A stretch of DNA of 64,000 nt, taken from NCBI RefSeq assembly GCF_014205225.1, contig NZ_JACHNB010000001.1, forward strand, positions 2,895,501 to 2,959,500, written 5' to 3'. The stretch's first letter is position 1. The number at the start of each line of letters is the position of its first letter. The notes under the pieces were generated by a model. The model ran no database searches. It was given only the letters and a program-made list of their open reading frames with translations, and was not told the DNA's origin. The DNA is from Actinoplanes octamycinicus. GTDB taxonomy: Bacteria; Actinomycetota; Actinomycetes; Mycobacteriales; Micromonosporaceae. Below are positions 9,701 through 38,646 of the stretch, piece by piece. The position numbers were made by a program, and so were the translations under genes.

Positions 9701-12700
9701 CCACCGACCGCGCCGCCCTGCTCCGCGAGTGCGACAGCGCGCTGGCCCAGCTGGACGCCGCGATCGCCGAGGGCCGGGAGTGGGCCACCCCGGCGGGCAG
9801 CTACTTCACGCCCCGCCCGATCGGCGCCGAGGGCAAGGTGGCGCTGGTCTACCCGGGCGCCTTCAACACCTACCTGGGCATGGGCGACGAGTTCTTCCGC
9901 TGCTTCCCGGGCCTGCTGCCGTGGTTCGAGGAGCAGGCCGAGCGGCCGGCCGACGTGCTGCGCAGCCGGATGCTCTACCCGCGTTCGGTCACCGCGCCGC
10001 AGCGGCGCGACCTGATGCGGGCCGAGGGGCGGCTGCTCGAGGACGTGCCGTTCATGCTGGCCACCGGGACCAGCTTCGCGCTGCTGCACACCGAGGCGCT
10101 GCGCCGCTCGCTGGGCGTCCGGGTGCACGGCGGGCTGGGCTACAGCCTGGGCGAGAGCAGCATGATGTTCGCCTTGGGCGGTTGGCGGCAGGGCGCCCGC
10201 AACGACGCCAAGATCGCCGCGACCCCGCTGTTCCGGGACCGGCTGTGCGGGCCGAAGCGGACCGTGCGCGAGCTCTGGGGCATCCCGGACGACGTGCCGG
10301 ACGCCCAGGTCTGGACCACCCTGGTGCTGCTGGCCGACGCCGAGGCGGTGCGCGCCGCGCTGCCCCGCTTCGACCGGGTCTTCCTCACCCACGTGAACAC
10401 GCCCCGCGAGGTGGTCGTGGCCGGCGCTCCGGAGCAGTGCGCGGAGCTGGTCCGGGAGCTGGGGTGCCGCAGCGCGCGGGCCCCGGCCAACCACGTCATG
10501 CACTGCCCGGTGGTGGACGGCGACGTGGCCGAGCTGGCCGACCTCAACCGGTACCCGACCCAGGCGGTCACCGACCTGGACCTGTTCAGCGCCGCGCACT
10601 ACGACCGGATCGCCCGGTTCGACCAGGACGGGATCGCCGCGGACATCGCGCAGACGCTGCGCTCCACGGTGGACTTCCCGCGGCTGGTGCGGGCCGCGTA
10701 CGACCGCGGCTACCGCTACTTCGTCGAGGTCGGCCCGGGCGGCACGTGCAGCCGGTGGATCCGCGAGACGCTCGGCGCCGCGGCGAGCGTGTGCGAGCCG
10801 GTGGCCCGGCGCGGGGCTCCGGACGCGGCCGGGTTCGCCCGGGTCGTCGCGCGGCTCGTCAGCCACGGCGTACCGGTGAATCTGGAAGCCCTGGCGCCGG
10901 CGGCCGTGACCGCCGCGCCCAGCCGGCGGGTGATGGTCGGCGGCGAATCCGTCGCCGACCTGGTCGCCGCGGCCGCCACCCCGATCGTGAGCCGGCTCCG
11001 GCCGGCGCCCGAACCCGAACCCGTTACCCACCGCTCGGAGACGGACCTGCCCATGAACAGCGATCCCGTGCCCGCGATCACCTTCGACGGCGAACCGGCC
11101 GGGCTGGTGCCCTACCCGGCCGCCGTCCCCGCCACCTCCTCAGTCCCCGTCGCTTCCGGGTCCGTCCCGGTGAACCTGCTGCCGCCGCCGGTGTCGGTCA
11201 CCGTCCCGGCCGGCGGCTCGCTGCCCGAGCTGGTGCGCGCCCTGCGCCAGCAGACGGTGGACGTGCACCGATCCGTCCTGACCGCCCAGCGTGAGCTGCA
11301 GGAACAGGTGGTCGGACTGTTGCGCGGACCGAGGCAGCCGAAGACCAAGCCGCCGGGTGTCATCTTCGACGCCGACGACCTGCTGGAGTTCGCCACCGGC
11401 AAGGTCGCCAACGTCTTCGGCGACCGGTACGCCCCGATCGACGAGGCCGGCCGCCGGGTCCGCCTGCCGGCGCCGCCCTACCACTTCGTCAGCCGGGTCA
11501 CCGCGCTGGAGGCCGAGCCGCTCAGGTTCGAGCCGGCCTTCATCCGGACCGAGTACGACGTCCCGCGCGGCGCCTGGTACCTGGTCGACGGCCAGGTCCC
11601 GCCGGCCGTCGCGATCGAGGCCGGCCAGTGCGACATGCTGCTCGCCGCCTACCTGGGGATCGACTTCGAGAACCGGGGCGAGCGGATCTACCGGCTGCTC
11701 GACTCGGCCCTGGAGTGGCACGGCAAGCTGCCGCGCGAGGGTCAGCGGCTGCGCTACGACATCTGGATCGACCGCTGGGTCAAGACGCCCGGACCGACGC
11801 TGTTCTTCTTCCGTTACCAGTGCTTCGCCGACGACGAGCTGATCCTGGAGCTGAAGAACGCCTGCGCCGGCTTCTTCACCGACGCCGAGCTGGCCGACTC
11901 GCAGGGCGTCAACCTGGCCGAGCTGTCCCGCAAGCAGCGCGACTACCCGCGGGACGGGCAGTTCAAGCCGCTGGCCCGGACCGCGCGGACCAGCCTGTCC
12001 GCCGCGGACATCGCCCGGCTGGGCCGGGGCGAGATCGCGGCGGTCTTCGGGCCGGCGTTCGACCAGGGCGGGCTGAACCCGTCGCTGCGGCTGCCCACCG
12101 GGGACCTGCTGATGGTCGACGAGGTCACCCGGCTGGACCGGACCGGTGGCCGGGCCGGGCTGGGCGCGGTCTCCGCGGTCAAGCGCCTGGTGCCGGACGG
12201 CTGGTACTTCACCAGCCACTTCCCGGACGACCCGGTGCTGGCCGGTTCGCTGGTCGCCGAGGGCGCGGTGCAGCTGCTGCAGACCTACGCGCTCGCCGTG
12301 GGGCTGCACCTGTGCCTGCCGGACAGCCGGTTCCAGCCGGTGCCCGGCCTGGAGACCGAGGTCAAGGTGCGCGGGCAGATCACCCCGCGGCACCGGGAGA
12401 TCCGGTACGAGGTGGAGATCGTCGACATCGGACTGCTGGAGCGGCCGTACCTGGTCGCCGACGTGCTCGTCTACCTGGGTGACAAGCCGGTCATCAGCAT
12501 CACCGGGCTGGGCATCCGGGTCGAGGAGAAGCCGGGCAGCCCGTACCGGCCCGGGGACGGCGGGGTGGTGGCCGAGGACCTGGGCCGGCGCAACGCCGCC
12601 GGGGAGCGAGCCATGCTCAGCGAGTTCCACATGGCGCACGCGGCCAAGGGTGACCTGGCCACCGCGATGGGGACCGAGTTCGAGATCTACCGGACGGTGC

Positions 12701-13737
12701 GGGCGCCGTACATCCCGAACGGCGACTTCCTCTACGTCGACCGGGTGATGGGCCTGTCCGGCGAGCGCGGCCGGCTCAAGCCGGGCGCGGTGATGGTCAC
12801 CGAGTACGACTCGCCGCCGGAGGCCTGGTACTACGCCGAGAACGGCGACCCGTTCATGCCGAACTTCGTCTACATGGAGTCCAGCCTGCAGGCGGCCATC
12901 CTGCTCGGCTACTACCTGGGCGCCACGCTCGGCCACCCGGACCGCGAGTACGCGATCCGCAACCTGGACGGCCACGCCACCCTGACCCGCCCGGTCGACC
13001 TGCGCGGCAAGACCATCCGGCAGACCTCGACGCTGCTCTCCAGCCAGGCGGTGCCGGGCGCGATCCTGCAGCGCTTCCGGTACGAGCTGGCCACCGACGG
13101 CGAGGTGTTCTACACCGGCGAGTCGCTGTTCGGCTACTTCACCGACCAGGCGCTGGCCACCCAGGTCGGCCTGGACGCCGGCAAGTTCGTGGCGCCCTGG
13201 CTGGACCAGCAGCAGCCGGCGCCGGCCGCGCTGCGCAGCGTCGACCTGGCCGCGGTGCGCGCCGAGACCACCGGCCCGCGGATGCCCGGTCAGCGGCTGG
13301 CGCTGCTGGACCGGCTGGACGTGGTGCCCGGCGGCGGCGTGCACGGCAAGGGCTACCTGCGGGCGCATCGGGCGATCTCGCCGGAGGACTGGTACTTCGA
13401 GCGGCACTTCTACCGGGACCCGGTGATGCCCGGCTCGCTCGGGGTCGAGGCGATCATCGAGGCGGTACGGGCGTACGTCAAGGAACTGGGTCTTGCCGAA
13501 GGCATCGCCGACCCGGTCTTCGCGCTGGCCCCGGGGGTCGAGCTGGCTTGGAAGTACCGCGGGCAGATCCTGCGCGGCGACCGGGAGATGGACGTCGAGC
13601 TGCACGTCAAGGAGGTGCGCACGGACGACGGCCGGCTGGTGCTGATCGGCGACGCCAGCCTGTGGAAGCCCGGCCTGCGCATCTACGAACTGGAGAACCT
13701 CGCCGTCGAGGTGCGGCCTGGAGGGGGCGCGGCATGA
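6763..13737 (+). CDS. PfaC-like synthase subunit (KS-CLF-AT-DH-DH)
   Basis: Second large subunit (2324 residues) of the Pfa-type synthase. Domains in order: an N-terminal ketosynthase (~1-440) with nucleophile C192 in DAACSSA and H327 (HATGTPLG) and H364 (NIGH); a chain-length-factor-like KS (~460-910) in which the nucleophile position reads CGDSAGG, so no active cysteine; an acyltransferase (~1020-1380) with the GYSLGE serine at ~1128, the tyrosine variant known from Pfa-type ATs; a Pro-rich and coiled linker; then four hotdog folds making two FabA-like dehydratases. The second and fourth hotdogs carry SHFPDDPV (H~1819) and RHFYRDPVMPG (H~2215); the first and third look non-catalytic. The order resembles myxobacterial Pfa3 and thraustochytrid subunit B. 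It starts 64 bp after the first subunit and overlaps the reductase gene by 4 bp. Confidence 0.93.
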   Translation: MDKFAIVGMSCLFPGASSLGEFWTNLVGGVDSRTDGTPEIFGAGREPAPEPAGEHRVYCTRGGFVRGFTFDPAGYRLPAGYLSGLDKVFHWSLHVAREALADVTAGAGRVGVVLGNYPFPTVGSTRSAGRPWWSAVGEGLDRAGFAGFGGPEPAGPGDAAEAHDNWPGGMPARVVGAALGLDGPALALDAACSSALYAVKLACDQLAAGRADVMLAGGVCAPDPTLIHLSFADLHAYPEDGFSQPFHARSGGILTGQGAGMVAVKRLADAERDGDRIYAVIDAIALTNDGAGRHLLAPNVRGQLDAYTRAYAEAGIAPSDVQYLECHATGTPLGDSTELAGIRQFFGERGGLPYFGSVKANIGHLLTVAGLSSMIKVILALRHGTIPPTIGVDEPLDGADTADRLVRAARPWPAVDGPRRAAVSAFGFGGTNAHIVLSQPVTSGAATPAPAPSAPARLAITGLGGHLGPFAGRDAIERAVHDGRDGFGPLPPHRWRGFTAGDTGVPPVDGGYLDGFDFDALRYRIPPRDLDHFNQQQLLMLGAADDALRDAGYRPPATADRSGPGRRVAVVVAMEMEPSAHGHRVRYAVGERVRAACADRDLAGDAEAVAGLVRAARDGIHDGIEPTEVLSYIGNIVASRISSTWHLTGPSFALCGDSAGGVAALDVAALLLRDASVEAVLVGAVDLAGGPENQAARARLAAAAGTRGLSLADGPGEDGWRVGEGAIALLVTRAPATGRVYATVDALAIRGSGTVEPAADPATIAAVARQALDAAGVTPDQVELVELHAGGIAGQDRAELAALAGIWSAERTGPASAALGSITAGVGDAQIAGSLAGVAKAALCLYHGYLPAVPGWTGPAAGYAELLDASGFYLPAKSRPWLRRRRDEPRRAAVSVLGTGGTYAHLVLAGAEPHGAHVATDWDRAAGPLLLPVQAPGPEALRVAVEAVRQAVADGADLAALCREGAAGRRPDGLRVVFCATDRAALLRECDSALAQLDAAIAEGREWATPAGSYFTPRPIGAEGKVALVYPGAFNTYLGMGDEFFRCFPGLLPWFEEQAERPADVLRSRMLYPRSVTAPQRRDLMRAEGRLLEDVPFMLATGTSFALLHTEALRRSLGVRVHGGLGYSLGESSMMFALGGWRQGARNDAKIAATPLFRDRLCGPKRTVRELWGIPDDVPDAQVWTTLVLLADAEAVRAALPRFDRVFLTHVNTPREVVVAGAPEQCAELVRELGCRSARAPANHVMHCPVVDGDVAELADLNRYPTQAVTDLDLFSAAHYDRIARFDQDGIAADIAQTLRSTVDFPRLVRAAYDRGYRYFVEVGPGGTCSRWIRETLGAAASVCEPVARRGAPDAAGFARVVARLVSHGVPVNLEALAPAAVTAAPSRRVMVGGESVADLVAAAATPIVSRLRPAPEPEPVTHRSETDLPMNSDPVPAITFDGEPAGLVPYPAAVPATSSVPVASGSVPVNLLPPPVSVTVPAGGSLPELVRALRQQTVDVHRSVLTAQRELQEQVVGLLRGPRQPKTKPPGVIFDADDLLEFATGKVANVFGDRYAPIDEAGRRVRLPAPPYHFVSRVTALEAEPLRFEPAFIRTEYDVPRGAWYLVDGQVPPAVAIEAGQCDMLLAAYLGIDFENRGERIYRLLDSALEWHGKLPREGQRLRYDIWIDRWVKTPGPTLFFFRYQCFADDELILELKNACAGFFTDAELADSQGVNLAELSRKQRDYPRDGQFKPLARTARTSLSAADIARLGRGEIAAVFGPAFDQGGLNPSLRLPTGDLLMVDEVTRLDRTGGRAGLGAVSAVKRLVPDGWYFTSHFPDDPVLAGSLVAEGAVQLLQTYALAVGLHLCLPDSRFQPVPGLETEVKVRGQITPRHREIRYEVEIVDIGLLERPYLVADVLVYLGDKPVISITGLGIRVEEKPGSPYRPGDGGVVAEDLGRRNAAGERAMLSEFHMAHAAKGDLATAMGTEFEIYRTVRAPYIPNGDFLYVDRVMGLSGERGRLKPGAVMVTEYDSPPEAWYYAENGDPFMPNFVYMESSLQAAILLGYYLGATLGHPDREYAIRNLDGHATLTRPVDLRGKTIRQTSTLLSSQAVPGAILQRFRYELATDGEVFYTGESLFGYFTDQALATQVGLDAGKFVAPWLDQQQPAPAALRSVDLAAVRAETTGPRMPGQRLALLDRLDVVPGGGVHGKGYLRAHRAISPEDWYFERHFYRDPVMPGSLGVEAIIEAVRAYVKELGLAEGIADPVFALAPGVELAWKYRGQILRGDREMDVELHVKEVRTDDGRLVLIGDASLWKPGLRIYELENLAVEVRPGGGAA

Positions 13738-15347
13738 GCGGGACGCTGTACTGGCACGGCTCGGACGTGCCCCGATTCGACTCCGCCGGCGCCCGGGAGG
13801 CGCTGGCCCGGCTGGACACCGCCTGCCACATCGTCCGCGACGCCCGCGGGACCGGTGTGGTGACCGGCGGATCGGCCGCCACCAGCGGCGACCTCGAACT
13901 GCTCGCGTCGGCGCCGCCGCTGCCGCCGGACCGGCTCGGCTCGCCGCAGTTCCGGGCCGCGCACGGGCTGCGCTACGCCTACATGGGCGGCGCGATGGCC
14001 GGCGGGATCGCCTCCGAGGAGATGGTCGTGGCGCTGGCCCGGGCCGGCATGCTCGGCTCGTTCGGGGCGGCCGGCCTGCTGCCCGAGCGGATCGAGAAGG
14101 CGCTGCAGTTCTTCGTCCGGGAGATCCCCGGCCTGCCGTACGCCTGCAACCTGATCCACAGCCCGAGCGAGGAGGCGCTGGAACGCAACGCGGTCTCGCT
14201 GTTCCTGCGCTACGGCGTGCCGTGCGTGGAGGCCTCGGCGTACCTCGACCTGAGCCCGCACATCGTGCGGTACCGGGCGGCCGGGCTGCGGCCCGGCCCG
14301 GACGGGCGGGTGCTGATCGGCAACCGGGTGATCGCCAAGGTGTCCCGGCCCGAGCTGGGCGAGCGGTTCCTGCGCCCGGCGCCGGAGCCGATCCTGGCCA
14401 AGCTGGTCGAGGACGGCTCGATCACCGCCGAGCAGGCCGAGCTGGCCCGCCGGGTGCCGGTCGCCGACGACCTGACCGCCGAGGGCGACTCCGGCGGGCA
14501 CACCGACCGGCGTCCGCTGGCCGCGCTGCTCTCCACCCTGCTGCGGGTGCGCGAGCAGGTCAGCCGCGACTACGGCTACCCGGACGCGCCGCGGATCGGG
14601 GCGGCCGGCGGGATCGGCACCCCGGAGGCCGCGGCGGCCGCGTTCGCGATGGGCGCGGCGTACATCGTCACCGGGTCGGTCAACCAGGCCTGCGTCGAGT
14701 CCGGCACCTCGCCGGCGGTGCGCGGCCTGCTGGCCCGGGCGGACATCGCCGACTGCCAGATGGCGCCCGCCGCCGACATGTTCGAGATGGGCGTGGAGCT
14801 GCAGGTCCTCAAGCGCGGCACGATGTTCGGGATGCGCGCCAAGCGCCTGTACGAGCTGTACCGCACCTACGACGGCCTGCACGCGCTGCCCGACGCCGAG
14901 CGGGAGAAGCTGGAACGGCAGGTCTTCCGCCGCCCGCTGGCCGACGTCTGGGCGGAGACCCGGGACTACTTCAACCGGCGGGACCCGGCCCAGGTGGAGC
15001 GGGCCGAGCAGAACCCGAAACGGCAGATGGCCCTGGTGTTCCGCTGGTACCTGGGGATGTCCTCGCGGTGGGCCAAGGTGGGCGAGGCCGACCGGCTGGC
15101 CGACTACCAGATCTGGTGCGGCCCGGCGATCGGCGCGTTCAACGACTGGACCCGGGGCAGCTACCTGGCCGCGCCGGAGAACCGCGGTGTCGTCGACGTG
15201 GCCGGCCAGTTGCTCACCGGGGCGGCGTTCCACCTGCGGGTGGCGCAGCTGCGCGCGGCCGGCGCCGACTTCGTGGCCGGCGCCACCGATTACCGTCCGG
15301 CCCTGGCGCAGGGTGAACAGGCGCCCGACCTGGCGCTGTTGCGATGA
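13734..15347 (+). CDS. pfaD: PfaD-type trans-acting enoyl reductase (nitronate-monooxygenase fold)
   Basis: 537-residue FMN-dependent TIM-barrel enzyme that reduces enoyl-ACP in trans for Pfa synthases. The sequence shows the family's opening glycine-rich strand (YMGGAMAGGIASEEMV), then the flavin/phosphate-binding pattern (AAGGIGTPEAAAAAFAMGA, ~285-305) followed by YIVTGSVNQACVESGTS, and a long C-terminal helical region (KRGTMFGMRAKRLYELY) typical of PfaD. The start is the ATG of an ATGA overlap with the preceding synthase gene; the frame is open for 186 bp upstream, but that part lies inside the synthase coding region. It supplies the reductase activity missing from the two multidomain proteins. 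The dehydrogenase gene downstream again overlaps by 4 bp, so all are translated together. Confidence 0.94.
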   Translation: MSGTLYWHGSDVPRFDSAGAREALARLDTACHIVRDARGTGVVTGGSAATSGDLELLASAPPLPPDRLGSPQFRAAHGLRYAYMGGAMAGGIASEEMVVALARAGMLGSFGAAGLLPERIEKALQFFVREIPGLPYACNLIHSPSEEALERNAVSLFLRYGVPCVEASAYLDLSPHIVRYRAAGLRPGPDGRVLIGNRVIAKVSRPELGERFLRPAPEPILAKLVEDGSITAEQAELARRVPVADDLTAEGDSGGHTDRRPLAALLSTLLRVREQVSRDYGYPDAPRIGAAGGIGTPEAAAAAFAMGAAYIVTGSVNQACVESGTSPAVRGLLARADIADCQMAPAADMFEMGVELQVLKRGTMFGMRAKRLYELYRTYDGLHALPDAEREKLERQVFRRPLADVWAETRDYFNRRDPAQVERAEQNPKRQMALVFRWYLGMSSRWAKVGEADRLADYQIWCGPAIGAFNDWTRGSYLAAPENRGVVDVAGQLLTGAAFHLRVAQLRAAGADFVAGATDYRPALAQGEQAPDLALLR

Positions 15348-17053: not shown

Positions 17054-18755
17054 CCCGGCCGACCCGGGCAGCCGGATGCCCGCCGTCCGGGCGCTCCAGC
17101 TCGACGAGCGGGAGGAGTACCCGCACGAGTTCCTCGCCGCGCTGCGGACCTGGGGGCTGCAGGACTGGATCATCCCGGTCGCGCACGGCGGCAAGGCGGT
17201 GCACGTCGAGGACGGGCTCCACCTGATCCGCGCGGTGGCCCGCCGGGACGCCACGGCGGCGACCGCGATGTCGATCGCCTGCCTGAGCTTCATGCCGATC
17301 TGGATCGCCGGCACTCATCAGCAGGGGCAGTACCACAGCGACCTGCTGCGGGCCGGCGGGAAGATCGCCTGGGGCCTCTCCGAACGCGGGCACGGCAGCG
17401 ACGTGCTGGCCAACGAGACCCGGGCCCGCAAGGTCGACGGCGGCTGGGTGCTGGACGGCGAGAAGTGGCTGATCGGCAACTGCTCGCTGGCCGACGTGGT
17501 GTGCGTGCAGGCGCGGACCGACGACCGGCCCGGCCCCGGCGCGTACTCGATCTTCGCGGTGGAGAAGCGGCGGATCACCGGCGGCTCCTGGACCGACCTG
17601 CCGAACGAGCCGCTGCACGGGCTGCGCGGGCTGGACATGAGCGGCATCCGGATGGACGGCTGCCGGGTCGGCGACGACGCGCTGATCGGCCGGGTCGGCC
17701 AGGGGCTGGAGATCACCCTCAAGGCCAGCCAGCTGGTCCGGATCAACATCAACGGGCTGGCCATGGGCTGCGCCGACACCGCGCTGCGGACCACCCTCGA
17801 CTTCGCGGTCGAGCGGGAGATCTTCGGCGAGCGGGTGGCCGACATCCCGTACTCCCGGGGGCAGCTGGTCGAGTGCTTCGCCGAGCTGCTGATCGCCGAT
17901 GCGATGGCGGCCGGCGCGGTCCGGGCCCTGCAGGTGGCCCCCAAGCAGGTCAGCGTCTGGTCGTCGGCGGCCAAGTACCTGCTGCCCACGATGCTGGACC
18001 GCGCGGTCGGCCAGCTCGCCGTGGTGCTCGGCGCCCGGCACTACCTGCGGACCGGGCCGCACGCGCTGTTCCAGAAGATGGCCCGGGACCTGCCGGTGGC
18101 GAACTTCGCCGACGGCAACACCGTGGTCAACCTGAAGAACATCGTGGCCCAGCTCGGGCAGCTGCTGGACACCGCGGCCACGGCCGGCGACGAGCGGCGG
18201 GCGGCGGCCGCGGTGACCGCCCGGGAGCTGTTCGACCTGCGGCCGCCGGCCGCGGCGTACGAGCCGTGGACGCAGGAGCTGAACAACCGCGGGATCGACG
18301 ACGCGGTGCTGGCCCTGCCCGAGTCGGTGGCCGGGCTCCGGGACCGGGGCTGGACCGGGCCGGCCAAGCTCGGCGAGCAGTTCCTCGGCGAGCTGGACCG
18401 GATGCGGGCCGAGCTGACCGCGCTGCGGGCCGCCTGGGGCCGGGCCGCGCCGCGCCGGCCGGAGGCGTACGAGCTGGCGAAACGCTACTGCGTGGTGCTG
18501 GCCGCCGCCTCCTGCGTGCACCTGTTCCGCTTCGGCCGGGAGGTGATCGACCCGCGGCTGGCCGACCCGGCGGTGCTGCACGTCTGCCTGGCCCGGCTGT
18601 GGCAGGTGCTGCACCCGACCGCGCCGCTGGCCGAACCGGAGGCGGTGGAGCACACCGCGCGGGCGCTGCTGACCCTGCACCAGGAGGGCCGGTCGTTCGG
18701 GTTCCGGGCCTGGCCGTCGCGTTTCTGGCTCTCGGAGGGAGGACGGACGTCATGA
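17004..18755 (+). CDS. Acyl-CoA dehydrogenase-like flavoprotein 2
   Basis: 583 residues from the ATG at 17004; a GTG at 16995 lies closer to the ribosome binding site GGAGAGAGG (16984-16992) and would add three residues. The family signature is clear: IAWGLSERGHGSDVLANE, the conserved EKWLIGN strand, a central LRGLDMSGI loop, and a long helical C-terminus. It is only distantly like the preceding dehydrogenase; the two adjacent overlapping genes suggest a heteromeric pair, as occurs in steroid and natural-product dehydrogenases (inference). Expected substrate: an acyl-ACP or acyl-CoA from the Pfa-type synthase. The stop overlaps the phosphopantetheinyl transferase start by 4 bp. Confidence 0.86.
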   Translation: MTTLADAMRSLEEYLGDPADPGSRMPAVRALQLDEREEYPHEFLAALRTWGLQDWIIPVAHGGKAVHVEDGLHLIRAVARRDATAATAMSIACLSFMPIWIAGTHQQGQYHSDLLRAGGKIAWGLSERGHGSDVLANETRARKVDGGWVLDGEKWLIGNCSLADVVCVQARTDDRPGPGAYSIFAVEKRRITGGSWTDLPNEPLHGLRGLDMSGIRMDGCRVGDDALIGRVGQGLEITLKASQLVRININGLAMGCADTALRTTLDFAVEREIFGERVADIPYSRGQLVECFAELLIADAMAAGAVRALQVAPKQVSVWSSAAKYLLPTMLDRAVGQLAVVLGARHYLRTGPHALFQKMARDLPVANFADGNTVVNLKNIVAQLGQLLDTAATAGDERRAAAAVTARELFDLRPPAAAYEPWTQELNNRGIDDAVLALPESVAGLRDRGWTGPAKLGEQFLGELDRMRAELTALRAAWGRAAPRRPEAYELAKRYCVVLAAASCVHLFRFGREVIDPRLADPAVLHVCLARLWQVLHPTAPLAEPEAVEHTARALLTLHQEGRSFGFRAWPSRFWLSEGGRTS

Positions 18756-19600
18756 CCACGATGTGGCCGGTCGGCGTGAGCGCCGAGACCGAGGTCGCCG
18801 GCCTGCACGGCGCGGCCGACATCTGGCTGCTGGCCGAGTCCGCGGTGGCCGGGCTCGCCACCGTGCTCGACGCCGAGCTGCTGCTGACCGAGGAGGAACG
18901 ACGGCGCCGGGACCGGCTGGTGCGGCCGGACAGCCGGTTGCGGTTCCTCGGCGCCCGGATGCTGACCCGGTACGCCCTGTCCCGGTACGCCGGCCTGCCG
19001 CCGGACCGGTGGCGGTTCGGGGCCGGGCCGTACGGGCGGCCGGAGATCGTCGGCGGCAACCGGTGGGCGCTGGACTTCAACGTCAGCCACACCGACGGGC
19101 TGATCGCCTGCGTGGTGTCGCGCTACCGGCGGACCGGGGTGGACACCGAGCGGTGGCCGGCCCGGCCGGAGGCGGTCCGGCTGGCCGGCAAGGTGCTCAC
19201 CGCCCGCGAGCAGGCCCATTTGGGCGGGCTCGACGAGGGCGCGCGGCGGCGGACGTTCAGCGGGTACTGGGTGCTCAAGGAGGCCTACACCAAGGCGCTC
19301 GGGCTCGGCCTGCAACGGCGCTTCGACAGTTTCGAGGTGTACGACTCGCCGGCCGGCGTGCCGGTGCTCAGCGACCCGACGCTGGGCCCGGGCGGCGGGC
19401 TCTGGCAGCTCGGCCTGCTCGACGTGCCGCCGGCGCACCTGCTCGGGGTGGCCGTCCGGCGCGGCGAGGCGGAGCCGCCGATCCGGCTGCGGATCCGCGA
19501 CGCCGGCCGGGAGCTGATGCTTCCCGGCGACCCGCGGATCACCGGGCCGGCGATCCGCGCCGAGCGGCTGTCCGGGCTGACCGGCCTCGGGATCGTCTGA
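18752..19600 (+). CDS. Sfp-type 4'-phosphopantetheinyl transferase (PfaE role)
   Basis: 282-residue enzyme that attaches phosphopantetheine from coenzyme A to carrier-protein serines; here it should activate the four ACPs of the first gene. Family motifs are present: FNVSHTDGL (residues ~109-117), the metal-binding GVDTE with D131 and E133, and WVLKEAYTKALG with K176 and E177. The start is the ATG in an ATGA overlap with the dehydrogenase stop. It is the last gene before a hairpin, so it closes the synthase operon, matching the PfaE gene often found with Pfa clusters. Confidence 0.95.
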   Translation: MTTMWPVGVSAETEVAGLHGAADIWLLAESAVAGLATVLDAELLLTEEERRRRDRLVRPDSRLRFLGARMLTRYALSRYAGLPPDRWRFGAGPYGRPEIVGGNRWALDFNVSHTDGLIACVVSRYRRTGVDTERWPARPEAVRLAGKVLTAREQAHLGGLDEGARRRTFSGYWVLKEAYTKALGLGLQRRFDSFEVYDSPAGVPVLSDPTLGPGGGLWQLGLLDVPPAHLLGVAVRRGEAEPPIRLRIRDAGRELMLPGDPRITGPAIRAERLSGLTGLGIV

Positions 19601-24155: not shown

Positions 24156-25438
24156 GCCGCCCGCTGGTGGTCGTGGTCGGCTTGAACCGGCGGCTGCTGG
24201 CCGCCCTGGACCGGGCCGGGCGGTACGACGTCGTGCTGATCGAGGAGCCGGCGGTCAGCCGGGCGAAGCAGGCCCCGGCCGCGGTCGCCGGGCATCCCGC
24301 GGTGCTCCGCCTGATCACCGCCGGTTACCAGCAGTCGGACGAGTTCCTGCGCGACCCGGCGGTGCGGGCGCTGCGGCCGGTCGCGGTGGTGCCCGGGCAG
24401 GAGTACGCGGTCGAGGCGGCCGCCGCGCTGGCCGAGACGTGCCGGCTGCCCGGCGCCGGGGTCGCCGCGGCCGGGGTGCTGCGGGACAAGCTGCGGCTCC
24501 GGTCGGTCACCACGGCGGCCGGCCTGCGCGCCCCGGCCTGGCAGGAGATCCACGCCGCGGCGGACGTCGCCGGGTTCGCCGCCCGGCACCCCCGGCTGGT
24601 GCTGAAGCCGGCCAACCGGCAGGCCAGCGTCGGTGTGCAGCTGCTGGAGCCGGGTGCCGACCTGGACCGGGCGTGGCGGCGCTGCCGGGCGGCGGACGAG
24701 CCGGACCAGCTCGCCGACCGGCCGATGCGCTGGCGCTACCTGGCCGAGGAGCGGCTGGCCGGCGCCGAGTACAGCGTGGAGAGCCTGGTCGCGGCGGGCC
24801 GGGTGCGGTTCGCCAACGTGACCGCCAAGCACCTGGTGCCCGGGGCGTACCCGGTGGAGATCGGGCACGACGTGCCGGCCGCGGTGCCCGCGGCGGTGCG
24901 GGCCGAGCTGCTGGCCCAGGCCGAGCGGCTGATCGGGGCGGTCGGCTTCGGCACCGGGATCCTGCACTCGGAGTGGAAGCTCACCGAGGCCGGTGGCGAG
25001 CCGCGGGCGACGCTGGTGGAGTGCGCCGGGCGGACCCCGGGGGACAGCATCGTGCCGCTGATCGGGCACGCGTACGGCTTCGATCCGTACCTCGCCCTGG
25101 TCGACCTGCTCGCCGGCGTCGACCCGGAGCCGCCGCGGCAGCCGGTGCGCGGCGCGGCGATCCGCTTCCTCGCCGCCCGCCCCGGGCGCCTGCTGGCGGT
25201 CTCCGGGGTGCCGGCGGCGGCCCGGGTACCCGGGGTCACCGACGTCGCCGTGCTGGCCGAGGCGGGCGCCCGGTTCACCGGCGTGACCAGCTCGTGGGAC
25301 CGGGTGGCCCAGGTGATCGCGGTGGCCGACGACACGGCCGCGGCGGCCCGGGCGGCCGACCGGGCGATCGCCGAGCTGCAGATGATCGTCGACGACACCG
25401 CCGGGGTGCCGGCCGGCGCGGAGGCGCGCCATGGCTGA
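24152..25438 (+). CDS. ATP-grasp carboxylate-amine ligase 3
   Basis: 428 residues from a GTG that overlaps the stop of ligase 2 (GTGA). It shows the preATP-grasp strand PLVVVVGLNRRLL, the ATP site LVLKPANRQASVGVQLL, EERLAGAEYSVESLV and the metal site TLVECAGRTPGDSIVPL, the last resembling carnosine-synthase-like ligases. The C-terminal ~100 residues form the usual lid and extra domain. The third of three consecutive ligases; the MFS gene begins within its last 8 bp. Peptide-bond formation on an amino acid, on the acyl product or at the end of the 20-residue peptides are the options (inference). Confidence 0.86.
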   Translation: MSRPLVVVVGLNRRLLAALDRAGRYDVVLIEEPAVSRAKQAPAAVAGHPAVLRLITAGYQQSDEFLRDPAVRALRPVAVVPGQEYAVEAAAALAETCRLPGAGVAAAGVLRDKLRLRSVTTAAGLRAPAWQEIHAAADVAGFAARHPRLVLKPANRQASVGVQLLEPGADLDRAWRRCRAADEPDQLADRPMRWRYLAEERLAGAEYSVESLVAAGRVRFANVTAKHLVPGAYPVEIGHDVPAAVPAAVRAELLAQAERLIGAVGFGTGILHSEWKLTEAGGEPRATLVECAGRTPGDSIVPLIGHAYGFDPYLALVDLLAGVDPEPPRQPVRGAAIRFLAARPGRLLAVSGVPAAARVPGVTDVAVLAEAGARFTGVTSSWDRVAQVIAVADDTAAAARAADRAIAELQMIVDDTAGVPAGAEARHG

Positions 25439-26714
25439 GCGGGGTCGCGGCGCGATCGCCACGTTCGTCCTGGCGTCGCTGGTCGACGCGGTCGGCACCG
25501 GCTGCTTCCTGGGTGGCTCGGCGCTGTTCCTGACCCGGACGGCCGGTCTGGACGCGGCCCAGGTCGGCGCCGGGCTGTCCCTGGCGGCGGTGGCCGGCCT
25601 GCTGGTCACCGTCCCGGTGGGCCGGCTGGCCGACCGGCACGGCCCGAAACCGGTCCTGCTCACCCTGCTGCTGATCCGGGCCGGGGGCTTCGCCCTGTAC
25701 GCCCTGGTCGGCTCGTTCCCGGCCTTCCTCGCCGTCGCGGTGCTGCTCGGGATGGCCGAGAAGCCGACCAGCCCGGCCCAGCAGGCGCTGATCGCCGCGG
25801 TGGTCGGCGACGGCGAGCGGCAGCGCACGCTGGCCCTGACCCGGGCGGTGCGCAACGTCGGGTTCGGCGCCGGCGCCGGCCTGGCCGCGCTGCTCGTGCT
25901 GCCCGGCTCGCCGGTCGGCCTGCCCGGGGTGGTGCTGTGCAACGCCGTCTCGTTCCTGCTCTCCGGCCTGTTGCTGGCCCGGGTGCCGGCCGCCCGCCCG
26001 GCGCGTCCGGCCGGTCGGCCGCCGGCCCGGCCGCGGCTGCTGGCCGACCGTGGCTACCTGCGGCTCACCGCGCTCAACGGCCTGCTCACCCTGCACATGG
26101 CGCTGCTCTCGACCGGGATCCCGCTGTGGCTGCTGACCGCCACCGACCTGCCCGCCTTCTGGCTGCCGGTGCTGGTGGTGCTCAACACCGTGGTGGCCGC
26201 CCTGGCCCAGGTGCCGGTGGCGCAGCGGGTCCGGGACGCGGCCGGCGCGGTGTCGATGCTGCGGGTGGCCGGGCTGTCGCTGGGCGGCTGCTGCCTGCTG
26301 CTCGCCCTGCTGCCGGGGATGACCGGCGCGGCGGTGGCCGCCGGGATCGCGGTCACCGCGGTGCTGGCGCTGACCGTGGCGGAGCTGACCCAGGCCGCGG
26401 GCGGGTGGGACCTGTCGTTCCGGCGGGCCGACCCGGAGCGACAGGGCGCCTACCTGTCGGTGTTCAGCCTCGGCGTGACCACCCAGACGATCGCCGGGCC
26501 GGTGCTGCTGACCGCGCTGGTGCTGCCGGCCGGCGCGGCCGGGTGGGCGGTGCTCGCCGCACTGCTCGCGGTGGCCGGGCTGGCCGCCCCGATGCTGGTC
26601 CGGGAATCCTTTCGCGAAGCCATTTCTCCTGGTCGCGGCGATCATTCCGAAAAAGCTCCGGAATCGCTGTCCGGATGCCCGGCCGCCGCGCCTCTTAATG
26701 GTGTCTCCGGTTGA
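25431..26714 (+). CDS. MFS transporter, probable product exporter 1
   Basis: 427-residue membrane protein with about 12 hydrophobic segments and the MFS loop 2-3 signature GRLADRHGPKPVL (residues ~64-76). It overlaps the third ATP-grasp gene by 8 bp and ends 32 bp before the first peptide gene. Such carriers in biosynthetic operons normally export the product or confer self-resistance. The final ~30 residues are polar and come from a locally less GC-rich segment. Confidence 0.88.
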   Translation: MAERGRGAIATFVLASLVDAVGTGCFLGGSALFLTRTAGLDAAQVGAGLSLAAVAGLLVTVPVGRLADRHGPKPVLLTLLLIRAGGFALYALVGSFPAFLAVAVLLGMAEKPTSPAQQALIAAVVGDGERQRTLALTRAVRNVGFGAGAGLAALLVLPGSPVGLPGVVLCNAVSFLLSGLLLARVPAARPARPAGRPPARPRLLADRGYLRLTALNGLLTLHMALLSTGIPLWLLTATDLPAFWLPVLVVLNTVVAALAQVPVAQRVRDAAGAVSMLRVAGLSLGGCCLLLALLPGMTGAAVAAGIAVTAVLALTVAELTQAAGGWDLSFRRADPERQGAYLSVFSLGVTTQTIAGPVLLTALVLPAGAAGWAVLAALLAVAGLAAPMLVRESFREAISPGRGDHSEKAPESLSGCPAAAPLNGVSG

Positions 26715-26746
26715 CACGGAGGGCGTAGCGAAAGGAGGTGGTTCGC

Positions 26747-26809
26747 ATGTCGTTCGAGATCGTGATCGTCGAGGAGCAGTCCGAGCTGCTGCATCACCCG
26801 ACCCTCTGA
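26747..26809 (+). CDS. 20-residue peptide, copy 1 (candidate ribosomal precursor or scaffold)
   Basis: Encodes MSFEIVIVEEQSELLHHPTL. The ribosome binding site AAAGGAGG (26731-26738) sits 8 bases before the ATG and is the strongest seen in this window. The same 20 residues are encoded twice more within the next 230 bp, differing only at synonymous codons, which argues for a translated product under purifying selection. The N-terminal half is acidic and hydrophobic like a short leader; the C-terminal half LLHHPTL carries two histidines, proline and threonine. Downstream enzymes (SagB type, cupin oxygenase) and upstream ATP-grasp ligases make it a likely substrate or scaffold. I do not recognise the family. 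Confidence 0.85.
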   Translation: MSFEIVIVEEQSELLHHPTL

Positions 26810-26858
26810 TCGGGTCTGCCCGCAGGACCCGTCACTGTTCGGTGAGGAGGTGATCCGC

Positions 26859-26921
26859 ATGTCGTTCGAGATCGTCATCGTCGAGGAGCAGTCCGAGCTG
26901 CTGCACCACCCGACCCTCTGA
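26859..26921 (+). CDS. 20-residue peptide, copy 2
   Basis: Identical protein to copy 1, with GAGGAGG eight bases before the ATG. Its start is 112 bp after that of copy 1. Synonymous changes at the second valine codon (GTC for GTG) and the first histidine codon (CAC for CAT) distinguish it from copy 1. The spacer between the copies differs, so what is kept is the ribosome binding site plus the coding part. Confidence 0.86.
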   Translation: MSFEIVIVEEQSELLHHPTL

Positions 26922-26972
26922 CCGGGTCTGGCACCTGGATGCCGGGATTCGTTCAGTGAGGAGGTGATTCGC

Positions 26973-27035
26973 ATGTCGTTCGAGATCGTGATCGTCGAGG
27001 AGCAGTCCGAGCTGCTGCACCACCCGACCCTCTGA
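26973..27035 (+). CDS. 20-residue peptide, copy 3
   Basis: Third identical 20-residue product, GAGGAGG nine bases before the ATG, start 114 bp after copy 2. From here to the terminator at 27247 there is no further convincing gene. Three equal copies raise peptide dosage, as is seen for several ribosomal peptide precursors. Confidence 0.86.
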   Translation: MSFEIVIVEEQSELLHHPTL

Positions 27036-27246
27036 TCGCCGCTGACGTCGTCGGCGACACCCCGGAGCGCACTTTCCGTCGCGGCCGAGTTCCCAGCAAT
27101 GGCAGACCCGGCCTCGCCCCTAGATGTCCCGGTCGGCACTTCGGTGCCGCGAACCGGTCCGTGCGTAGGGGTGTCGTCAACGCATCACGGCCGGACCCCA
27201 GCGGATCAGCGATGAGCACACCGGTCTGACCGTTGGAATCCCCGGA

Positions 27247-27298
27247 GAACGGGGGTGGCTCGTGAAAACGAGCCACCCCCGTTCTTTTTTGTGTTTTT
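27247..27298 (+). terminator. Strong intrinsic terminator after the peptide genes
   Basis: Perfect 16-bp stem GAACGGGGGTGGCTCG, loop TGAAAA, then TTTTTTGTGTTTTT (27285-27298). It is the only textbook U-tract terminator of the locus. It lies between the peptide genes and the SagB gene, so it either ends the ligase/peptide transcript or attenuates read-through so that peptide mRNA greatly exceeds enzyme mRNA. The 210 bp between copy 3 and this hairpin contain no gene I can support. Confidence 0.95.
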
Positions 27299-27328: not shown

Positions 27329-28453
27329 ATGAAAGTACGTCGCCACCGCCATCTCGTCTGCCGGTGGGAGGAGGACGGACTGCTGGTCGGGGTGCCCGAT
27401 CAGCGGCGCTGGGTCAAGGCGACCCCCGGCCTGCGCGCCCTGCTCGACGCCGCGGACCAGTGGATCGACGTGGACGACCTGGTCGAGGGCCTCGGCGAGT
27501 CGCCCGGGGTCCGCGACGCGGTGGACGCGCTGCGGAAGATGAACCTGCTGACCGACGACGACACCGACACCGGCGACGGGTCCGACGAGCTGCGGGCGCC
27601 GTGGGGCTGGTGGGGGATGACCGCGCAGCGGTTCCACACCGACGCGCGGGACGCCAACTACCTGGTCAACTCGCCGCACCGGGACGAGACCGCGGCCGCG
27701 ATCGCCGCCGACGGCAACGGGCCGCCGGCCTTCAAGGACTATCCGGACCGCCCGGTGGTGATGCTGCCGCGCCGGCCGCTGCCGCTGCACGCCCCGGTGG
27801 ACGAGGTGTTCGCCGCCCGGCGCACGCACCGCTGCTTCACCGCCGAGCCGGTCACCCTGGACCAGCTCTCGACGGTGCTGTTCTACACGTTCGCGCCGCA
27901 GCGGTTCCTGGACGGCGGCCTGTTCGGCGTGCTGCAGGGCCGGGTGTCGGCCTCGGCGGGCGCCCGGCACGAGGCCGAGTGCTACGTCGTGGTCTTCAAC
28001 GTCGTCGGCGTCACGCCTGGGCTCTACCACTACTCGACCCGGCAGCACGCGCTGGAGCTGCTCCGGGCCGACGTCACCCGGGACGAGCTGGCCGAGCTGA
28101 CCTACCACCAGGGCCCGTCGTACGAGGGCGCCTTCACCTGCCTGACCACCGCGGTGGCCAACCGGCTGGCCTGGAAGTACCGGCATCCCCGGGCGTACCG
28201 GCTGTGGATGTACGACGCCGGCCACTACGCGCAGACCTTCGCACTGACCTGCACCGCGCTCGGCCTCGGCCCGTTCCAGACGGTGGCCTTCGCCGACACC
28301 GAGCTGGAGACCTTCCTGGGCGTCGACGGCGACCAGGAGTTCGCCGTCTACCTGCTGGCCGCCGGCGTGCCGGACGGCGCCCCGGCGAGCCCCAGCGGCA
28401 CGCCCAGCCTGCCCGTCGACTTCCGTTATCCCGCGCCCACCGTGCTCTGGTGA
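27329..28453 (+). CDS. SagB-type peptide dehydrogenase (nitroreductase fold)
   Basis: 374-residue FMN enzyme; ATG 4 bases after GGAGGA. Residues ~1-85 form a small N-terminal domain rich in W, D and R, of the kind fused to SagB proteins; ~150-350 are the nitroreductase-like core with RRTHRCFTAEPVTLDQLS and the family pattern TPGLYHYSTRQHALELLR, ending in GLGPFQTVAF. Classical SagB enzymes oxidise azolines to azoles after a YcaO cyclodehydratase. No YcaO or E1-like protein is encoded in the window, and the 20-residue peptides contain no cysteine, so it probably performs another dehydrogenation. It is the first gene after the peptide terminator, followed 23 bp later by the cupin oxygenase. Confidence 0.87.
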   Translation: MKVRRHRHLVCRWEEDGLLVGVPDQRRWVKATPGLRALLDAADQWIDVDDLVEGLGESPGVRDAVDALRKMNLLTDDDTDTGDGSDELRAPWGWWGMTAQRFHTDARDANYLVNSPHRDETAAAIAADGNGPPAFKDYPDRPVVMLPRRPLPLHAPVDEVFAARRTHRCFTAEPVTLDQLSTVLFYTFAPQRFLDGGLFGVLQGRVSASAGARHEAECYVVVFNVVGVTPGLYHYSTRQHALELLRADVTRDELAELTYHQGPSYEGAFTCLTTAVANRLAWKYRHPRAYRLWMYDAGHYAQTFALTCTALGLGPFQTVAFADTELETFLGVDGDQEFAVYLLAAGVPDGAPASPSGTPSLPVDFRYPAPTVLW

Positions 28454-28476: not shown

Positions 28477-29640
28477 ATGACCACGACCGACTTCTCCACC
28501 CTCGTCGAGGACGTGCCGCGGTTCCTCGACGACTCCTGGACCCGCGAGCCGCTGCTGCGCCGGGCCGCCTCGCCGAACGGCTTCGCCGACGTGCTGACCG
28601 TGGCCGAGGTGGGCCGGCTGCTGAGCTCGCCGACCCTGCGGCTGCCGTTCGTCCGGCTGGTCAAGGGCGGCGAGTCGGTGCCGGAGAGTGCCTACACCAC
28701 CACCCGGCGGTTCGGCCACGGCACGGTCACCGACGCGGTCGACCGGGACCGGGTGCTGACCTACTTCCGGTCCGGCGCGACGATCGTGCTGGACGCGGTC
28801 GAGGCGTACGCCCCCGGGGTGGCCCGGATGTGCGCCGAGGCGGCCGCGACCCTGGGCTGCCCGGCCGACGCGGTGGCCTTCCTGACCCCGCCGGCGCGCA
28901 AGGGCCTGTCCCCGCACATCGACGACGAGGACGTCTTCGTCCTGCAGATCTCCGGCACCAAGCGCTGGCTGGTCCATCCGCAGCTGCGCCCGGTGCCGCT
29001 GACCCCGCGCACCCTGCTCGGCCAGGACCTCGGCGCGCCGCTGCTGGACGTGGTGCTCGGCCCCGGTGACGCGCTCTACGTCCCGCGCGGCACGCCGCAC
29101 GAGGCCGCCTCGGTCGGCGGGCACTCGCTGCACGTGTCGCTGGCCGCGCGCCGGCCCACCCTGGACACGCTGGTCCAGGACGTGGTGCGGGAGGCGCTGG
29201 CGGCGGTGCCCGGGGACGCCGACGTCGACGCCGGCGTGCACCCGGAGTCGGTCGCCGTGCCGCTGGGCCGGCGGTTGGAGGCGGTGCGGGCACGCCTCGG
29301 GCAGCTCGGTGTCGCGGCGGTCCGGGCGCCCGGCGGCGCGTCCGCGGCACCGTCCGCCTCGATCGAGTCGATCCTGTCCGGCATGGACGGCCTGGCCGAC
29401 GAGAACAGCCGGATCCGGGTGCCCGGCACGCTCCGGGTGGAACCGGCCGGCGACCAGGTGGCCGCCGACTTCGGCGGGTTCCGGGCGATGTTCCCGGCCC
29501 CGCTGGCGGCCGGCCTGATCCGGCTGGCCGGCGGCGAGTCGGTGACCCTGCGGGAGCTGGCCGCCGGTGGGGACGTGGCGAGTGTCCGGGCCGCGGCCAG
29601 CCAGCTGGTGCTGCGCGGCGCGTTCGTGCTGGCCGCCTGA
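28477..29640 (+). CDS. JmjC/cupin_4 Fe(II) 2-oxoglutarate-dependent oxygenase
   Basis: 387 residues, ATG after CGGAGG. The metal-binding facial triad is visible as H147 and D149 in SPHIDDEDVFVLQISG and H208 in PRGTPHEA; KRW follows at ~160. This arrangement, with a C-terminal dimerisation and winged-helix-like region (~245-387), matches the cupin_4 family, whose bacterial member YcfD hydroxylates arginine of ribosomal protein L16 and whose human relatives MINA53 and NO66 hydroxylate histidine of ribosomal proteins. Next to a SagB enzyme and His-His-Pro peptides, hydroxylation of the small peptide is a natural guess (inference). Its stop overlaps the start of the MFS gene by one base. Confidence 0.88.
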   Translation: MTTTDFSTLVEDVPRFLDDSWTREPLLRRAASPNGFADVLTVAEVGRLLSSPTLRLPFVRLVKGGESVPESAYTTTRRFGHGTVTDAVDRDRVLTYFRSGATIVLDAVEAYAPGVARMCAEAAATLGCPADAVAFLTPPARKGLSPHIDDEDVFVLQISGTKRWLVHPQLRPVPLTPRTLLGQDLGAPLLDVVLGPGDALYVPRGTPHEAASVGGHSLHVSLAARRPTLDTLVQDVVREALAAVPGDADVDAGVHPESVAVPLGRRLEAVRARLGQLGVAAVRAPGGASAAPSASIESILSGMDGLADENSRIRVPGTLRVEPAGDQVAADFGGFRAMFPAPLAAGLIRLAGGESVTLRELAAGGDVASVRAAASQLVLRGAFVLAA

Positions 29641-30731
29641 TGGGCGGGATCGGCGCGATGGCGCCGGAGCGAACGGACCGGACCGGCGGGATCTGGCGGC
29701 GCCGGTCGTTCGTCCAGCTGTGGGCGGGGCAGTCGGCCGGGTCGGTCAGCGACCAGCTGCTGCCGATCGCGCTGAGCCTCTACGTGGTCCAGCGCGGCGG
29801 CGGGGTGGCCGACGTCAGCCTGCTGCTCGGCGGTCGCGCGGTGGCCCTGGTGCTGTGCCTGCTGATCGGCGGGGTGCTGGCCGACCGGGTGCCGCGGATC
29901 CGGCTGCTGATCACCGCGGACGTGTTCCGGGCCGCGGTGCTGCTCGCCGCCGTGGCGGCGCTGCCGCACCTGGCGCTGGGCGCGCTGGCCGTGGTGACCG
30001 TGCTGGTCACCGCCACCGGGCCGCGGGCCGCGCTGCTGGTGGCCGCGGCGCTGTTCCTGATCGGGGCGGCGGTGACCGCCGGGGTCCCCGGCGGCGAGCC
30101 GGTCGCCCGGCGCGGCGCCTCGGTGCTCACCGACGTCGCCGACGGGTTCCGGGCGATCCGCGACCGGCCCTGGATCTACGCCGTGATGGGCACCGTCTGC
30201 CTGCACCTGATGGCCGGCACGGCGGTCGCGCTGACCCTGCTGCCCGTGGTGGCGGCCCGCGACCTGGGCGGCGCCGGCGTCTACGGGGCGGCGGTAGCCG
30301 CGATGGCGGCCGGGGCGCTGCCCGCGGTGGTGGTGGCCGCCCGGTACCGCCCGGCCCGGCCCGGCCGGGCGGCGATGCTGGCCCTGGTCGGCTATGCCCT
30401 GCCGGTGCTGAGCCTGGCGCTGCCGGTGGGCGCGGCCGGGGTGATCGCGGCCTTCGCGGCCGGCGGCTTCGTCGTGGAGTTCTTCTTCGTGTACTGGGTG
30501 GCGGCGCTGCAGCGCAACGTGCCGCGGGAGCTGCTCGGCAAGGTGTTCGCGCTGGACCAGCTCGGCGCGTACGCCCTGCTGCCGGTCGGCTACGCGCTGG
30601 TCGGGCCGGTGGTGGCCGGGATCGGCGAGCGACCGGCGCTGATCGGCGGGGCGGTGCTGGTGGCGGTCTCCAGCGTGCTGGTGCTGGCCGTGCCGCGGGT
30701 CGCCGGGTTCGGTGACGCCCCGGCGGCCTGA
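29640..30731 (+). CDS. MFS transporter, probable product exporter 2
   Basis: 363-residue, about 10-12 membrane segments; starts in TGATG overlap with the oxygenase stop (a second ATG lies 18 bp downstream). The loop signature GGVLADRVPRIRLL is present near residue 80. It resembles the MFS_3/enterobactin-exporter-like branch and is a little short for the family (usually ~400). It ends 11 bp from the convergent sigma factor gene, which marks the end of this operon. Confidence 0.85.
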   Translation: MGGIGAMAPERTDRTGGIWRRRSFVQLWAGQSAGSVSDQLLPIALSLYVVQRGGGVADVSLLLGGRAVALVLCLLIGGVLADRVPRIRLLITADVFRAAVLLAAVAALPHLALGALAVVTVLVTATGPRAALLVAAALFLIGAAVTAGVPGGEPVARRGASVLTDVADGFRAIRDRPWIYAVMGTVCLHLMAGTAVALTLLPVVAARDLGGAGVYGAAVAAMAAGALPAVVVAARYRPARPGRAAMLALVGYALPVLSLALPVGAAGVIAAFAAGGFVVEFFFVYWVAALQRNVPRELLGKVFALDQLGAYALLPVGYALVGPVVAGIGERPALIGGAVLVAVSSVLVLAVPRVAGFGDAPAA

Positions 30732-30742: not shown

Positions 30743-31327
30743 TCAGGCCGCCAGCGCCTCGCGCAGCCGGCGCAGGCAGCGGGTCCGGATCGGGCCGATC
30801 GAGCTGGCCGACAACGCGAGGCGTTCGGCCGCCTCCTCGTAGCTGGCCGGCGGGTCGGTCAGCATCAGTTCGAGCAGCGCCTGGCACTGCGGCGACAGGC
30901 AGTGCAGGGCGGCCCGCAGCCGGGCGTGCAGCTCGGCCCGCAGCACCTCGTCCTCGGGCTGGGCGACCTGCGGGTCGGCCCGCTCGAAGAGTTCGATCTT
31001 GTCGCTGACCACCGTCCGCGAGCTCCGGTTGAGCTGCTTGAGCGACTCGTTGCGGGCCACCGTGGCCAGCCAGTCGCCGAGGCGCTCCGGGTCGCGGATG
31101 GTGTCGACCTTCTGCACCAGCTTGCTCCAGGTCGCCTGGCAGACGTCCTCGCACTCGGTGTGGCTGAGCCGGTGCCGGAAGGCCACCGACCAGATCAGGC
31201 CGGCGAACCGGTCCACCACTTGTTGCCAGGCGCCCTGGTCGCCGCCGCGGCAGGCGGTCAGGAGTTCGGCGTTCGACGGGCCCCGGTGCTGGTAGGTACG
31301 GACGGCGGGAGGTGCCACAGCAATCAC
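30743..31327 (-). CDS. ECF-type RNA polymerase sigma factor
   Basis: 194 residues with sigma region 2 (AFRHRLSHTECEDVCQATWSKL, residues ~49-70) and region 4 (SYEEAAERLALSASSIGPIRTRCLRRLREAL, split by a linker from region 2). It has no SnoaL or other C-terminal extension and no adjacent anti-sigma gene. It faces the end of the peptide operon and is divergent from the ACP gene. A role in controlling the neighbouring biosynthetic genes is possible but not shown by any recognised promoter pair. Confidence 0.9.
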   Translation of the reverse strand: MIAVAPPAVRTYQHRGPSNAELLTACRGGDQGAWQQVVDRFAGLIWSVAFRHRLSHTECEDVCQATWSKLVQKVDTIRDPERLGDWLATVARNESLKQLNRSSRTVVSDKIELFERADPQVAQPEDEVLRAELHARLRAALHCLSPQCQALLELMLTDPPASYEEAAERLALSASSIGPIRTRCLRRLREALAA

Positions 31328-38536: not shown

Positions 38537-38646
38537 ACAAGCTCATTCCTTGAACGCGTTCATGGTCGGCATACGTGGAGACACTCACCTTCACGTTTTC
38601 CGCCGTAGGTCCGGCAACGTCGCTAGAACTGCACGGGAGTCGATTG

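Follow-up and report, generated by a model that had tools for sequence, protein, structure and literature searches.

The window analysed here, 64,000 nucleotides of Actinoplanes octamycinicus (contig NZ_JACHNB010000001.1, positions 2,895,501 to 2,959,500), carries three tandem genes for one identical 20-residue peptide upstream of a sagB-type flavin dehydrogenase gene. Judged from sequence comparisons and structure prediction, this peptide is probably the precursor of an enzyme-modified RiPP (ribosomally synthesised and post-translationally modified peptide), the leader of which would dock on a predicted RiPP recognition element (RRE) of SagB while the core, HHPTL, would be oxidised. The locus most likely represents an uncharacterised RiPP class, and possibly a lipid hybrid in this host. 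The peptide gene, SagB and a major facilitator superfamily (MFS) transporter form a set that recurs in 21 of 21 close actinomycete loci, accompanied in 14 by a JmjC-type oxygenase, and the features expected of a RiPP cluster are found: a gene-encoded precursor with leader-like and core parts lying beside enzymes, and a predicted RRE. The initial annotation had proposed either a ribosomal precursor or a scaffold on whose end amino acids are built; the first idea finds support in the conservation of the peptide gene, the predicted RRE of SagB, the oxidising-enzyme genes and the MFS gene, and the second is not retained (see below).

The peptide gene array

The three open reading frames (ORFs) all encode MSFEIVIVEEQSELLHHPTL, as had been annotated, and the very strong ribosome binding site assigned to each copy is present, with GGAGGTG placed 6 nt 5' of every ATG. 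The 63-bp coding parts differ at 2 sites only, both of them synonymous third positions, while 38 of 51 alignment columns are identical in the two spacers (18 of 29 outside the ribosome-site block), in agreement with the description of an identical protein between diverging spacers. TRF reports the array as a repeat of period 112 with 2.7 copies and a 90% match. Each of two degenerate DNA patterns for the core is found three times in the 10.28-Mb genome, always within the array, and control matches numbered 0. None of the three 20-mers matched an NCBIfam model up to E 10, and a plasmid DNA search yielded 13 records in which the matches were short and chance-like. A structured RNA was considered as a reading of the array and rejected: folding of positions 26680-27100 gave a z of 0.75 against shuffles, and two Rfam matches fell far under their gathering scores.

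Peptide genes at related loci

When one genome per species was scanned with the SagB of the window, 15 loci were returned, 13 of them at 58-63% identity; L017 and L018 (33-34% identity) were left outside the comparison. An ORF of 18-20 residues lies 5' of sagB in all 13, with MDIVIIEDREVVAHHPSL, MALDIEIIEDGQVLLHHPST and MFEIEIVEDDVTLLNHPTL as examples. SagB profile searches, which matched 2 of 394, 12 of 354 and 18 of 394 genomes (query genomes counted, thresholds differing), added seven further distinct close loci: five from the family of the host, four with MAFDIVIVETNEEVLNHGAV-type peptides and one with HHP, and two from the Streptomyces family (MSFEIRIVKDSKKLIHHPGR and MEEIIIVVEEGPLLDHPGR). 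Duplicates were removed before counting (L026/L037, equal to L014; L048, equal to L008; L049, equal to L007), and a related peptide gene was then found in 21 of 21 distinct close loci, window included. As a related short ORF occupies the same place at every close locus, these ORFs are not chance occurrences.

Ile7 and His17 are the only invariant residues in a 19-row peptide alignment; the close-clade peptides share a common leader pattern and an invariant core His, and length differences among their genes amount to whole codons in every case. At L008 (positions 8579-8635), a second precursor copy ends in HHQGL rather than HHPSL, the sole close-clade copy in which neither Pro nor Gly was seen to follow the core His.

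More distant SagB relatives, at 35-48% identity to the enzyme of the window or of L007, are preceded by other candidate precursor cores. Among 23 such divergent loci, a candidate short ORF with a ribosome site was found in 20, and L081, L082 and L084 offered no convincing candidate; these peptides have no chance control and are therefore treated as leads only. The candidate cores include ...LLNNHG, ...VLHDPTR (with JmjC), ...VLHSA, ...SVYYGK, ...MLACKAS, ...NNAC, ...WQWRWRWVGT and one with VAYxPS repeats. The candidate 5' of sagB at L036/L047, MKRKLQATVTAVAKSRVDVAYSPAASVAYAPSVSVAYAPSAK, consists in part of repeated VAYxPS-like units. The pattern suggests a large SagB-centred group with clade-specific putative cores, within the limits of candidates that lack a chance control.

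SagB and its predicted recognition domain

SagB scores 101.5 bits against TIGR03605 (cut-off 78.4) and 55.6 against PF00881 (cut-off 23.5); against the peptide maturation dehydrogenase model TIGR04511 it reaches 123.7 bits, under the cut-off of 240. A single match, at 38%, was found on plasmids. The conserved [HND]-H of the core would be the obvious site for this enzyme.

The type of peptide shifts with the SagB clade. This bears on the alternative that the unmodified peptide is itself a signal or regulator and that the substrate of SagB is something else. The ORFs are very short and no modified form has been seen, as such a role would allow, but it is made highly improbable by the change of peptide with SagB clade and by the predicted RRE, precursor peptides being the known partners of this fold.

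The known role of SagB enzymes is an auxiliary one, the completion of azole rings that YcaO has formed, and azoline dehydrogenases of the SagB/McbC/ThcOx type act in azole RiPPs such as streptolysin S and microcin B17. Azole RiPPs, cyanobactins included, use these dehydrogenases, whereas the present genome gave no YcaO match, nor did G745 and G1031, against some matches in the other 11 of 14 genomes. Furthermore, the last five residues of the peptides contain no Cys, Ser or Thr in six close loci (L066, L067 and four NHGA loci); the window core, HHPTL, does contain a Thr. Azole chemistry, and with it azoline oxidation by SagB, is thus unlikely for this host because of the missing YcaO match and of these six loci. 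The sagB contig of G642 does bear two YcaO genes, at a distance of about 7.5 kb from sagB; they presumably form a separate cluster. The precursor reading leaves SagB as the constant enzyme, which in seven loci would therefore have to act with JmjC absent.

The hairpin upstream of sagB

A stable hairpin occupies the spacer between peptide gene and sagB in 14 of 14 loci looked at. When 60 random stretches were drawn from each locus for comparison, 0-8 were as stable (18 of 21 loci scored; L007, L038 and L041 were left out, and in L008 and L013 the second peptide copy falls inside the scored stretch). An arrangement in which HHP-type codons of a short ORF precede such a hairpin, terminator-like in the window, would also be expected if the ORFs were attenuator leader peptides, with ribosome pausing at His-His-Pro codons controlling the hairpin 5' of sagB. 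We consider this very unlikely: the array holds three full tandem copies with their own ribosome sites, the window hairpin begins 208 nt past the last stop codon, the N-terminal half of the peptide is conserved though attenuation would not need it, divergent loci have Tyr, Cys or Trp candidate cores instead, and SagB bears a predicted peptide-binding RRE.

The JmjC oxygenase

The motif residues H147, D149 and H208 (HxD...H) of the JmjC protein and its 2-oxoglutarate (2OG) lysine, K162, are invariant in 15 of 15 sequences. The gene is present in 14 of the 21 close loci, in two copies at L008, L011 and L013, and is absent from L010, L016, L038-L041 and L066. Its presence goes with that of Pro: it occurs at 14 of the 17 loci in which Pro follows the core His, compared with 0 of 4 lacking this Pro (p 0.006, relatedness uncorrected). 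According to the accessible part of PMC4556315, NO66 recognises NHxH and hydroxylates the first His, which makes for an appealing parallel; the target His is held by Tyr328 and Ser421 (accessible parts of PMC4556315 and PMC9994133). The enzyme described here resembles NO66/MINA53 in the predicted JmjC fold, the HxD...H motif and the 2OG lysine, but the His-contacting Tyr and Ser are replaced, the protein is bacterial and cluster-borne, and its proposed substrate is an 18-20-mer. Because of these replacements, His need not be the hydroxylated residue and we make no claim that it is; the data allow the putative target to be narrowed no further than to the His-Pro stretch. JmjC homologues of PF08007 are noted in RiPP-like contexts in the accessible part of PMC12710340, the only paper found in the literature searched that holds RiPP, SagB and JmjC together.

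Selection on the peptide and points of tension

The claim that selection keeps the peptide obtains moderate support. Variable sites in ten near-relative groups speak weakly for it, as they fall at codon positions 1, 2 and 3 in the numbers 22, 18 and 35, a third-position share of 0.47 (binomial p 0.011, with no correction of the sites for relatedness), and the ratio of nonsynonymous to synonymous differences (pN/pS) is 0 among the copies of the window, 0.13 for the Streptomyces 18-mers, 0.22 for the NHGA group and 0.18 for the L005/L006 pair. The codon-level evidence is modest, however, and partly negative, and this is the first of several observations that weigh against a modified precursor: pN/pS reaches 1.59 for L007/L009/L015 taken as a group and 1.28 when all 20-mers are pooled, amino-acid-changing variable codons outnumber synonymous-only ones by 36 to 21, and a frame-shift identity control showed no preference for the true frame (0.517, compared with 0.561, 0.506 and 0.484).

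Others concern the enzymes. The structure model of SagB fails in the catalytic domain, where the predicted local distance difference test score (pLDDT) is below 50 nearly throughout from residue 81. In the JmjC protein, the equivalent of NO66 Tyr328 is Phe135 in 15 of 15 sequences and that of Ser421, position 223, is Ala in 13 and Gly in 2 (residues mapped by hand count). HHP cores occur without JmjC at three loci (L010, L016 and L066), the HHQGL copy of L008 lies at a locus with JmjC, and at L072, one of the divergent loci and one that carries JmjC, the candidate core contains neither His nor Pro. Finally, besides SagB, MFS and JmjC, no gene family was common to more than 4 of the first 14 loci, so that no common protease showed.

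The PUFA-synthase block

In the window, the peptide cassette lies inside a lipid block resembling polyunsaturated fatty acid (PUFA) synthase loci, since the aldehyde dehydrogenase and af470-like genes of that block lie beyond it (Table 1). PfaA or PfaBC matches were found at L008, L011, L013 and L067, the fetched stretch of L011 showing PfaA only. In G943, the genome of L067, the order PfaA, PfaBC, PfaD, two acyl-CoA dehydrogenases, phosphopantetheinyl transferase, aldehyde dehydrogenase and af470 stands beside the cassette. The same lipid genes are divided over two contigs each in G748 and G1031, with breaks inside PfaBC and PfaA, and these contigs presumably abut. All five loci with Pfa linkage, window counted, carry JmjC subtype A (linkage against subtype, 5 of 5 compared with 0 of 11; Fisher 2.3e-4, relatedness uncorrected).

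No Pfa genes occur in the examined stretches of the nine loci with only the other JmjC subtype or the seven without JmjC. A genome-wide PfaD search covering 11 of these 16 loci, in 10 genomes, found none near sagB or none at all, the nearest lying about 149 kb (G827) or 307 kb (G662) away or on other contigs (G747); for L006, L009, L010, L015 and L016 the check covered the fetched stretch. A related PUFA-type block in G662 (L107/L108), with thioesterase and FAD oxidase genes, is about 307 kb from the cassette found elsewhere in that genome, and contains neither a SagB cassette nor a match to the peptide pattern.

It is close to an even prospect, though somewhat below it, that the SagB cassette and the PUFA-synthase block are separate pathways side by side and that the peptide product carries no lipid. 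The 16 loci without Pfa genes in the stretches examined, 11 of them without nearby PfaD genome-wide, and the distant G662 block speak for this, and the divergent transcription of lipid and cassette parts in Streptomyces-type loci likewise counts against coupling. Against it stand the eight lipid genes adjoining the cassette in both the window and G943, their presence in G748 and G1031 on contigs taken to abut, PfaA in L011, the association with JmjC subtype A and the position of the cassette inside the block. Three genes that have no match in the window stand between PfaA and the peptide at L093/L094, L008, L011 and L013: one for an FAD oxidase (amine-oxidase-like by eye), one that is thioesterase-like and one that is small and conserved.

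Other genes of the window

Table 1. Features of the array, the cassette and the surrounding genes
Feature	Position	Strand	Remarks
PfaA-like PUFA-synthase subunit	72..6698	+	cut by window start; ketosynthase (KS) end, acyltransferase, four acyl carrier protein repeats, ketoreductase
PfaB/C-like subunit	6763..13737	+	two KS, two FabA-type dehydratase domains
PfaD-like trans enoyl reductase	13734..15347	+	
Two acyl-CoA dehydrogenase-like genes	15344-17053, 17004-18755	+	lipid block
Phosphopantetheinyl transferase	18752..19600	+	lipid block
SbnA-like gene	20542-21690	+	window-only
Three ATP-grasp ligases	21687-22916, 22926-24155, 24152-25438	+	window-only
MFS transporter just 5' of array	25431..26714	+	no match in 20 other close loci
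Precursor gene copy 1	26747..26809	+	ribosome site AGGAGGT at 26733-26739
Precursor gene copy 2	26859..26921	+	protein same as copy 1; two synonymous differences from it
Precursor gene copy 3	26973..27035	+	protein same as copies 1 and 2
Terminator-like hairpin	27244..27297	+	between array and sagB; 20 bp stem, T tail
sagB-type flavin dehydrogenase	27329..28453	+	PF00881, TIGR03605 above cut-off; K283-Y284 invariant in 14/14
SagB N-terminal domain, residues 1-88	27329..27592	+	predicted RRE (structure model, VIA-align)
JmjC-type 2OG/Fe oxygenase	28477..29640	+	PF08007; predicted NO66/MINA53-like fold; subtype A
Cassette MFS transporter	29640..30731	+	homologue in 21/21 close loci
Aldehyde dehydrogenase	32498-33913	+	lipid block, beyond cassette
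af470-like monooxygenase	33941-34462	+	lipid block, beyond cassette

The cassette MFS gene follows sagB or JmjC in all 21 close loci. In tblastn searches (E 1e-8) of the other 20 close loci, covering the stretches fetched, no match was obtained for any of the three ATP-grasp genes, for the SbnA-like gene or for the upstream methyltransferase. The proposed scaffold, to whose C-terminus amino acids would be added by PEARL-type (peptide aminoacyl-tRNA ligase) enzymes or ATP-grasp ligases, takes its appeal from these three ligases, which lie upstream in the same direction and match an L-amino-acid-ligase C-terminal domain (the first 0.1 bit below the model cut-off). As they are unmatched in 20 of 20 other close loci, and as PF04738, a proxy for LanB/PEARL-type enzymes, has 0 matches in this genome (some elsewhere in 12 of 14 genomes), we give the scaffold hardly any credence. 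Graspetides likewise have an ATP-grasp enzyme as a conserved partner of the precursor, unlike the situation here. Within the third ATP-grasp gene and on its coding strand, ARAGORN places a tRNA-Ser(gct) at 24165-24254; this call is probably spurious.

A gene for an ECF-type (extracytoplasmic function) sigma factor (30743-31327, minus strand) is convergent to the cassette MFS gene. Two genes at 38575-41599 resemble, by eye, NAD(P) transhydrogenase subunits and could possibly supply NADPH to the lipid synthase; homologues of the pair start 6.5 kb past the sagB start in L013.

Proposed pathway and comparison with known systems

For the modified precursor, the following pathway may be envisaged. 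The N-terminal strand of the peptide would dock on the predicted recognition domain of SagB, which would dehydrogenate a residue at or beside the conserved His; JmjC, where present, would hydroxylate the His-Pro stretch. A protease from outside the cassette would then cut off the core, for export by the MFS protein. The three copies, together with the terminator before sagB, may raise the dose of peptide over that of the enzyme. With less confidence, the core in the window may be joined to, or work with, lipid from the PUFA-synthase block.

A more specific proposal, which we regard as tentative, is a lipid-RiPP hybrid class in which a triplicate precursor has its His-His-Pro tail oxidised by an RRE-bearing SagB without YcaO and by a NO66-like JmjC enzyme, and is joined to a PUFA-type chain, within a wider SagB-centred family with HHP, NHG, Tyr-, Cys- or Trp-containing cores according to clade. 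In the known lipid-RiPP hybrids, goadvionins and lipolanthines, a fatty acyl chain is combined with a ribosomal peptide. These are lanthipeptides, whereas here SagB and JmjC stand with a PUFA-type synthase. The PfaA/BC/D domain content is like that of PUFA synthases and secondary-lipid Pfa synthases, but here the synthase lies beside a SagB peptide cassette.

The biphenomycin pathway is similar in having a RiPP cluster with a JmjC hydroxylase (BipG) and an MFS gene, and BipG, which acts on ornithine, and the related PbsQ provide a precedent for JmjC enzymes in RiPPs; it differs in that a multinuclear non-haem iron-dependent oxidase (MNIO) and a B12 radical S-adenosylmethionine enzyme are at its centre and ornithine is hydroxylated, and the accessible parts of these two sources name no SagB (PMC12707348, PMC12257519). 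No description of SagB with such a precursor was recognised in the literature searched, most subscription journals being outside it.

If the interpretation is correct, a SagB with its own predicted RRE would be the sole constant modifying enzyme of an 18-20 residue precursor, which would constitute a new role for SagB, and genome miners would gain a tag for genes too short for annotation. Studies of JmjC specificity would gain a convenient system in NO66-like oxygenases that act on so small a bacterial substrate. Furthermore, a link to a PUFA-type synthase would represent a new route to lipopeptides, and if the core is joined to lipid in this genome, its product may belong to an undescribed class of bacterial molecule.
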